Part shown: one piece after another, positions 12,641 to 54,164 of the stretch | Position numbering within the stretch: position 1 is the first letter of the stretch | Layout: each line of letters opens with the position of its first letter | Assembly (NCBI RefSeq): GCF_918797505.1 | Contig: NC_092793.1 | Coordinates: 86,192,411-86,256,410 of the forward strand | From: Bemisia tabaci | Taxonomy: Eukaryota > Arthropoda > Insecta > Hemiptera > Aleyrodidae | Reading direction: 5' to 3' | DNA: 64,000 nt | Position numbers and translations under genes: made by a program | The notes under the pieces: model-generated | Seen by the model: only the letters and a program-made list of their open reading frames with translations | What the model was told of the DNA's origin: nothing | The model's database searches: none

Positions 12641-12932
12641 TTAACTGTCCAGATATTTGTCTGGGACAAAGTTTTCTTCAGACCAATTTTTGCTGTTTTT
12701 TATCCCCACCATCGAAGGAAGAAGCTGAAAATATAATGGCAGCATACCAATGTCCTCCGGTAAACTGACCCATCCGACGGATTGTTCATTCTTGTTTTGT
12801 TCCTTCAACCAGTTTGTCAGAGGCTCAAAGTACTCCATTAAGGGTCTAGCGTCAAGCTTGCTTGATTGTCCTTGAGTTGCAATTTTCAAGACTTCTGTCC
12901 ACGGTTTCGACGCGCCAACTGCCATGAGATCG
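12641..12932 (-). CDS. Ance: ACE exon 8 of 8, C-terminal end with stop
   Basis: Acceptor ctcttccag. The first base completes Gly; then [36 protein letters not shown] and SVGW, the usual end of an M2 domain. Reading continues through about 42 further residues without family resemblance (ending [10 protein letters not shown]) to a stop at 12641. A GTCAGT sequence at 12769-12764, on a codon boundary after SVGW, could instead be a donor to a further exon at lower coordinates. No hydrophobic membrane anchor is seen in the tail, so a secreted product is possible. Confidence 0.88.

Positions 12933-54164: not shown

Follow-up and report, generated by a model that had tools for sequence, protein, structure and literature searches.

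ACE-like proteins predicted to be inactive are already known from flies, nematodes and mammals: those described are Drosophila Ance-2 to Ance-5, proteins of C. elegans and mammalian ACE3 (PMC9518657, PMC1925091). In Drosophila Ance-3 the downstream zinc-ligand Glu is reported to be replaced by Gln (PMC1325048); in mouse ACE3 it is the catalytic Glu that is reported as changed to Gln (HQMGH), together with a change at Asp415 (PMC1925091). Activity loss does not seem to be the rule among insect paralogues, to judge by the ACE-like proteins of Anopheles (nine) and Apis (three), all of which are said to retain the residues that the motif requires (PMC1325048). For the AnoACE proteins, all of which are said to keep the HExxH...EA residues, the same source proposes no activity loss. 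Three pea aphid ACEs are likewise said to keep HEXXH (PMC4351530). As to gene structure, AnoACE7 and other mosquito ACEs are described as multi-exon genes, and a very large intron is reported ahead of the last exons of AnoACE7 and Ance-3 (PMC1325048).

We describe here a locus in a 64-kb window (the whole stretch of DNA that was analysed), which probably adds another member to this group. In our assessment it is probably the 3' portion of an intact animal gene of ACE-like type (peptidase family M2) with large, repeat-rich introns, encoding a paralogue in which, judging by its active-site residues, peptidase activity is lost or altered. The locus resembles the genes of AnoACE7 and other mosquito ACEs in being split into many exons, and it resembles Drosophila Ance-2 to Ance-5 (a likeness by description only) and mammalian ACE3 in being an M2 paralogue whose active site is altered. 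Unlike Ance-3, its protein retains the downstream Glu, the changes lying at residues that surround the zinc site; unlike mouse ACE3, it retains both the catalytic Glu and Asp415. The comparison with the AnoACE proteins covers gene structure and the HExxH...EA motif.

Eight exons encode the C-terminal part of an M2 protein

The gene model comprises eight exons on the minus strand, running from position 54164 to position 12641; residues are in tACE numbering, and each exon is supported by its splice sites and by the hidden Markov model (HMM) match given, with active-site residues read from the alignment.

54050..54164, minus strand: exon a (the first detected), 115 bp, NMWAQ...YDPA(K), with Gln281; HMM E 8.6e-8
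46535..46687, minus strand: exon b, 153 bp, IFQTSEEFF...KDF, with Cys352 and H353K (alignment column); HMM E 9.6e-17
44099..44223, minus strand: exon c (active-site exon), 125 bp, HEMSH, with His383, Glu384 and His387 kept and G386S; HMM E 7e-12
34592..34690, minus strand: exon d, 99 bp, FHEAIAD, with the third zinc ligand Glu411 and Asp415 kept and G414A; HMM E 2.4e-6
23787..23863, minus strand: exon e, 77 bp; HMM E 7.1e-7
19321..19481, minus strand: exon f, 161 bp, WRWGVF...SYI, with Lys511, His513 and Tyr520; HMM E 6.3e-19
14670..14792, minus strand: exon g, 123 bp, YFVSLILQF..., with Tyr523 and two Cys flanking GPLHN; HMM E 2.8e-13
12641..12932, minus strand: exon h, 292 bp, the end of the M2 domain and a 42-residue tail, with the stop TAA at 12643-12641; HMM E 1.3e-12

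Spliced together, these exons read through 380 codons to a terminal TAA without an earlier stop or a frameshift; the codon for Arg522 is split across the junction between exons f and g, and Tyr523 comes next. AG precedes all eight exons and GT follows at all seven donors, and the pyrimidine content of the 15 bases upstream of the acceptors is 53-73%, compared with an average of 48% upstream of every AG on the minus strand. The introns, in the order from 54164 to 12641, measure 7362, 2311, 9408, 10728, 4305, 4528 and 1737 bp. An earlier note on this DNA had given the start, end, exon lengths and codon count of the model, and we find them exact to the base; the joined open frame also bears out its GT-AG sites, its matching phases at seven junctions and its statement that no frameshift or stop interrupts the 380 codons. 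Its description of a complete two thirds needs qualifying: the exons correspond to positions 242-581 of the 581 in the Pfam profile, some 58% of the domain, and 'complete' holds for the C-terminal part, the 5' end of the whole gene being missing from the model.

The exons stand out sharply from chance. Of 2915 open stretches (at least 15 amino acids, six frames), exactly eight passed the inclusion threshold of an HMM for the C-terminal part of M2, made from 80 prokaryotic M2 proteins and a human tACE sequence; these are the eight exons (E 6.3e-19 to 2.4e-6). When the window was resampled 20 times with a first-order Markov model, the best E was 0.0036. That open fragments had assembled by chance is therefore vanishingly improbable, and we rejected this origin: the eight matches are collinear, none other in the six-frame translation passes the threshold, and the resampled windows hold nothing comparable. 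Thus a real gene part of 41.5 kb could be recovered by a reader from eight short exons in repeat-rich DNA.

At the 5' side, N-terminal M2 exons were not detected in the 64-kb window with an N-terminal HMM of 78 sequences (best E 1), a model of prokaryotic sequences and one human sequence that could miss short divergent exons. Exon a lies 9.8 kb from the window end, a distance greater than the length of every intron but one (10728 bp); the 5' exons probably lie beyond position 64000. At the 3' side, the polyadenylation signals within the 3 kb downstream of the stop are poor (ATTAAA at 12127, AATAAA at 10032), and a further 3' exon may follow exon h. The C-terminal tail (12641-12769) extends the protein by 42 residues beyond the M2 profile match; most of them have no equivalent in the human stretches aligned, and the tail is not strongly hydrophobic (best 19-residue Kyte-Doolittle mean 0.97).

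The window contains no duplicate ACE exons: tblastn of the spliced protein returned the eight exons, and the next row had E 3.6. Nor did it yield RNA genes, with no tRNA found by ARAGORN and no Rfam match at gathering score. Open stretches of 110 amino acids or more number 32. Ten of them were scanned against Pfam: one (containing exon h) was assigned to M2, one had a match below the curated cut-off and eight had no match at E 0.01. Relatives were not confirmed among 35 pattern matches in viral contigs, nor among 11 pattern matches in genome contigs obtained with a single-sequence query.

The protein is of the animal ACE type

Residues 1-338 of the spliced protein match Pfam Peptidase_M2 (PF01401) with E 4e-160 and 534.6 bits (curated cut-off 23; profile 242-581 of 581), a score that makes it a member of this family, and the M2 zinc-site signature (HExxH and a downstream Glu) is present as HEMSH and HEAIAD. 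Comparison with PDB gave matches to 179 distinct sequences with E of 0.001 or below, headed by an ACE with two matching domains, 2c6f, which we take to be human; it scores 452 bits, above 6s1y (389) and 2x92 (374), presumably the ACEs of Anopheles and Drosophila, respectively. The assignment to M2 (ACE) made in the earlier note is supported by these Pfam and PDB matches and by the exon-HMM matches. Its phrase 'ACE gene' is sound as regards M2 family, splice sites and phases, although it should not be taken to imply an active ACE, three residues that are invariant in the relatives compared being replaced.

The relationship to ACE is unremarkable: identity is 57% to the human ACE N-domain and 53% to the C-domain. 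Over the 339 residues aligned with the N-domain of human somatic ACE, the zinc ligands and catalytic Glu are the same; the protein differs from that domain in H353K, G386S and G414A, and in a C-terminal tail that is longer and has no strongly hydrophobic segment. In a FastTree tree of 83 sequences (this protein, the two human domains and 80 prokaryotic M2 proteins, with no arthropod ACE included), it clusters with the human domains with support 1.0, apart from all 80 prokaryotic proteins. This position, together with the introns, indicates an animal-type ACE and not a bacterial insertion. The terminal branch is about twice as long as those of the human domains (0.825 vs 0.462 and 0.407), which would fit a fast-evolving paralogue, the human branches being no fair yardstick for the rate of another lineage.

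Three otherwise invariant active-site residues are replaced

What the earlier note overlooked, on the evidence of the alignment, is an altered active site. Columns were compared in an alignment with the best 80 of the 165 prokaryotic M2 proteins found, no arthropod ACE being included. Among columns with 60 letters or more, 135 have a single residue in 90% or more of the sequences; the protein described here has that residue at 104 of these and human tACE at 115. Five columns are identical in 80/80 prokaryotic M2 proteins and different here: 353, 385, 386, 414 and 426. At two of them, 385 (Met) and 426 (His), the residue is that of human. The remaining three changes, H353K, G386S (HEMGH to HEMSH) and G414A, are shared neither with any of the 80 prokaryotic proteins nor with either human domain. 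Twelve residues are kept, each of them present in 80/80: Gln281, Cys352, His383, Glu384, His387, Glu411, Asp415, Lys511, His513, Tyr520, Arg522 and Tyr523. Among the features by which we would recognize an active ACE, then, the protein has the zinc ligands, the catalytic Glu and Asp415, and it lacks the residues that human ACE and prokaryotic M2 share at 353, 386 and 414. The codons for Lys353, Ser386 and Ala414 are AAA, TCA and GCT; the first two cannot be reached from a His or Gly codon by fewer than two base changes, so that single sequencing errors are no explanation for those two.

Mutating His345 in ACE2 is reported to cripple the enzyme. This residue is the ACE2 equivalent of His353 and is described as common to ACE2 and the two domains of ACE (PMC7642307), whereas PMC11237572 yielded no useful information on it; His353 itself is described as forming a hydrogen bond with the P1' part of bound inhibitors in crystal structures (PMC12820606). 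An ACE with Lys at 353 is not mentioned in the titles and abstract openings retrieved, an absence of little weight, the change not having been queried by name.

The protein probably folds as an M2 peptidase and still binds zinc through His383, His387 and Glu411, and the replacement of His353 by Lys, with G386S and G414A beside the zinc site, probably removes or strongly changes dipeptidyl-carboxypeptidase activity. Such a protein could serve as a peptide-binding or narrowly specific paralogue alongside a normal ACE elsewhere in the genome. Should the active-site changes be borne out in the complete gene, this would be a paralogue that keeps its whole zinc site and is altered in the residues that hold the substrate, a route to a changed ACE unlike the replacement of a zinc ligand or of the catalytic Glu reported for Ance-3 and mammalian ACE3.

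Competing explanations

The same residues can be read in favour of activity. With the metal ligands and catalytic Glu kept, activity is possible, and Lys, Ser or Ala at 353, 386 or 414 might be common in some active invertebrate clade, the comparison set being one without arthropod ACE. The gene could accordingly encode an active invertebrate ACE-family peptidase of usual or shifted substrate preference, in which Lys353 replaces His353 in holding the substrate backbone. Retention of the zinc ligands, Glu384, Asp415, Lys511, His513, Tyr520, Arg522 and Tyr523 would suit such an enzyme, as would the Anopheles and Apis paralogues said to keep their active-site motif residues (PMC1325048); by a coarse motif of the HEXXH type, however, the present protein too would count as complete. 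The invariance of His353 in 80/80 prokaryotic M2 proteins and both human domains, and the replacement of two further invariant residues, glycines adjoining zinc ligands, lead us to regard an active peptidase of this kind as unlikely, if still deserving of attention. We are somewhat more doubtful again of a related idea, that a zinc-loaded M2 enzyme with H353K, G386S and G414A has acquired a new cleavage specificity or traps peptides, as opposed to simply losing activity.

A recent pseudogene that has yet to acquire stops, or a copy severed from its 5' exons, might also lose three otherwise invariant residues, and might be expected amid so much repeat DNA; the 9.8 kb upstream yielded no N-terminal exon, though just one intron in seven is longer than that and the N-terminal HMM could overlook short divergent exons. 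We nevertheless consider this improbable: the splice sites are intact, 380 codons are read without a stop or frameshift, and the protein keeps 104/135 highly conserved columns (human tACE 115/135). The intact frame and high conservation make it plausible that the gene is under selection, and our preferred reading remains an intact paralogue of impaired or altered activity.

Repeats in the introns and flanks

Three open frames, 59738-60157 (minus strand), 19741-20088 (plus strand) and 45173-45670 (plus strand), look by eye like pieces of a copia RNase H, a retroelement integrase and a Helitron, which is how we provisionally take them; none has a Pfam match at E 0.01. A 1.8-kb repeat occurs as two inverted copies (9757-11562 and 50645-52451), with pieces 95-99% alike; each contains a head-to-tail array of 4-5 units, about 130 bp apiece, one of the two lies in the intron between 54050 and 46687, and the repeat resembles a mobile element. 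A repeat of about 0.9 kb has inverted copies at 288-1233 and 29982-30928, 97-99% alike and 29 kb apart.

There are also five large, near-perfect inverted repeats (48484-50556, 41904-43097, 8164-9425, 56835-58630 and 37781-39044), three of which sit within introns of the ACE-like gene. Their arms are 364-876 nt long and 95-99% complementary, with spacers of 240-804 nt, like fold-back elements. A long simple repeat occupies 44560-44870, and its frames read His-Arg, Val-Ile or poly-Asp.
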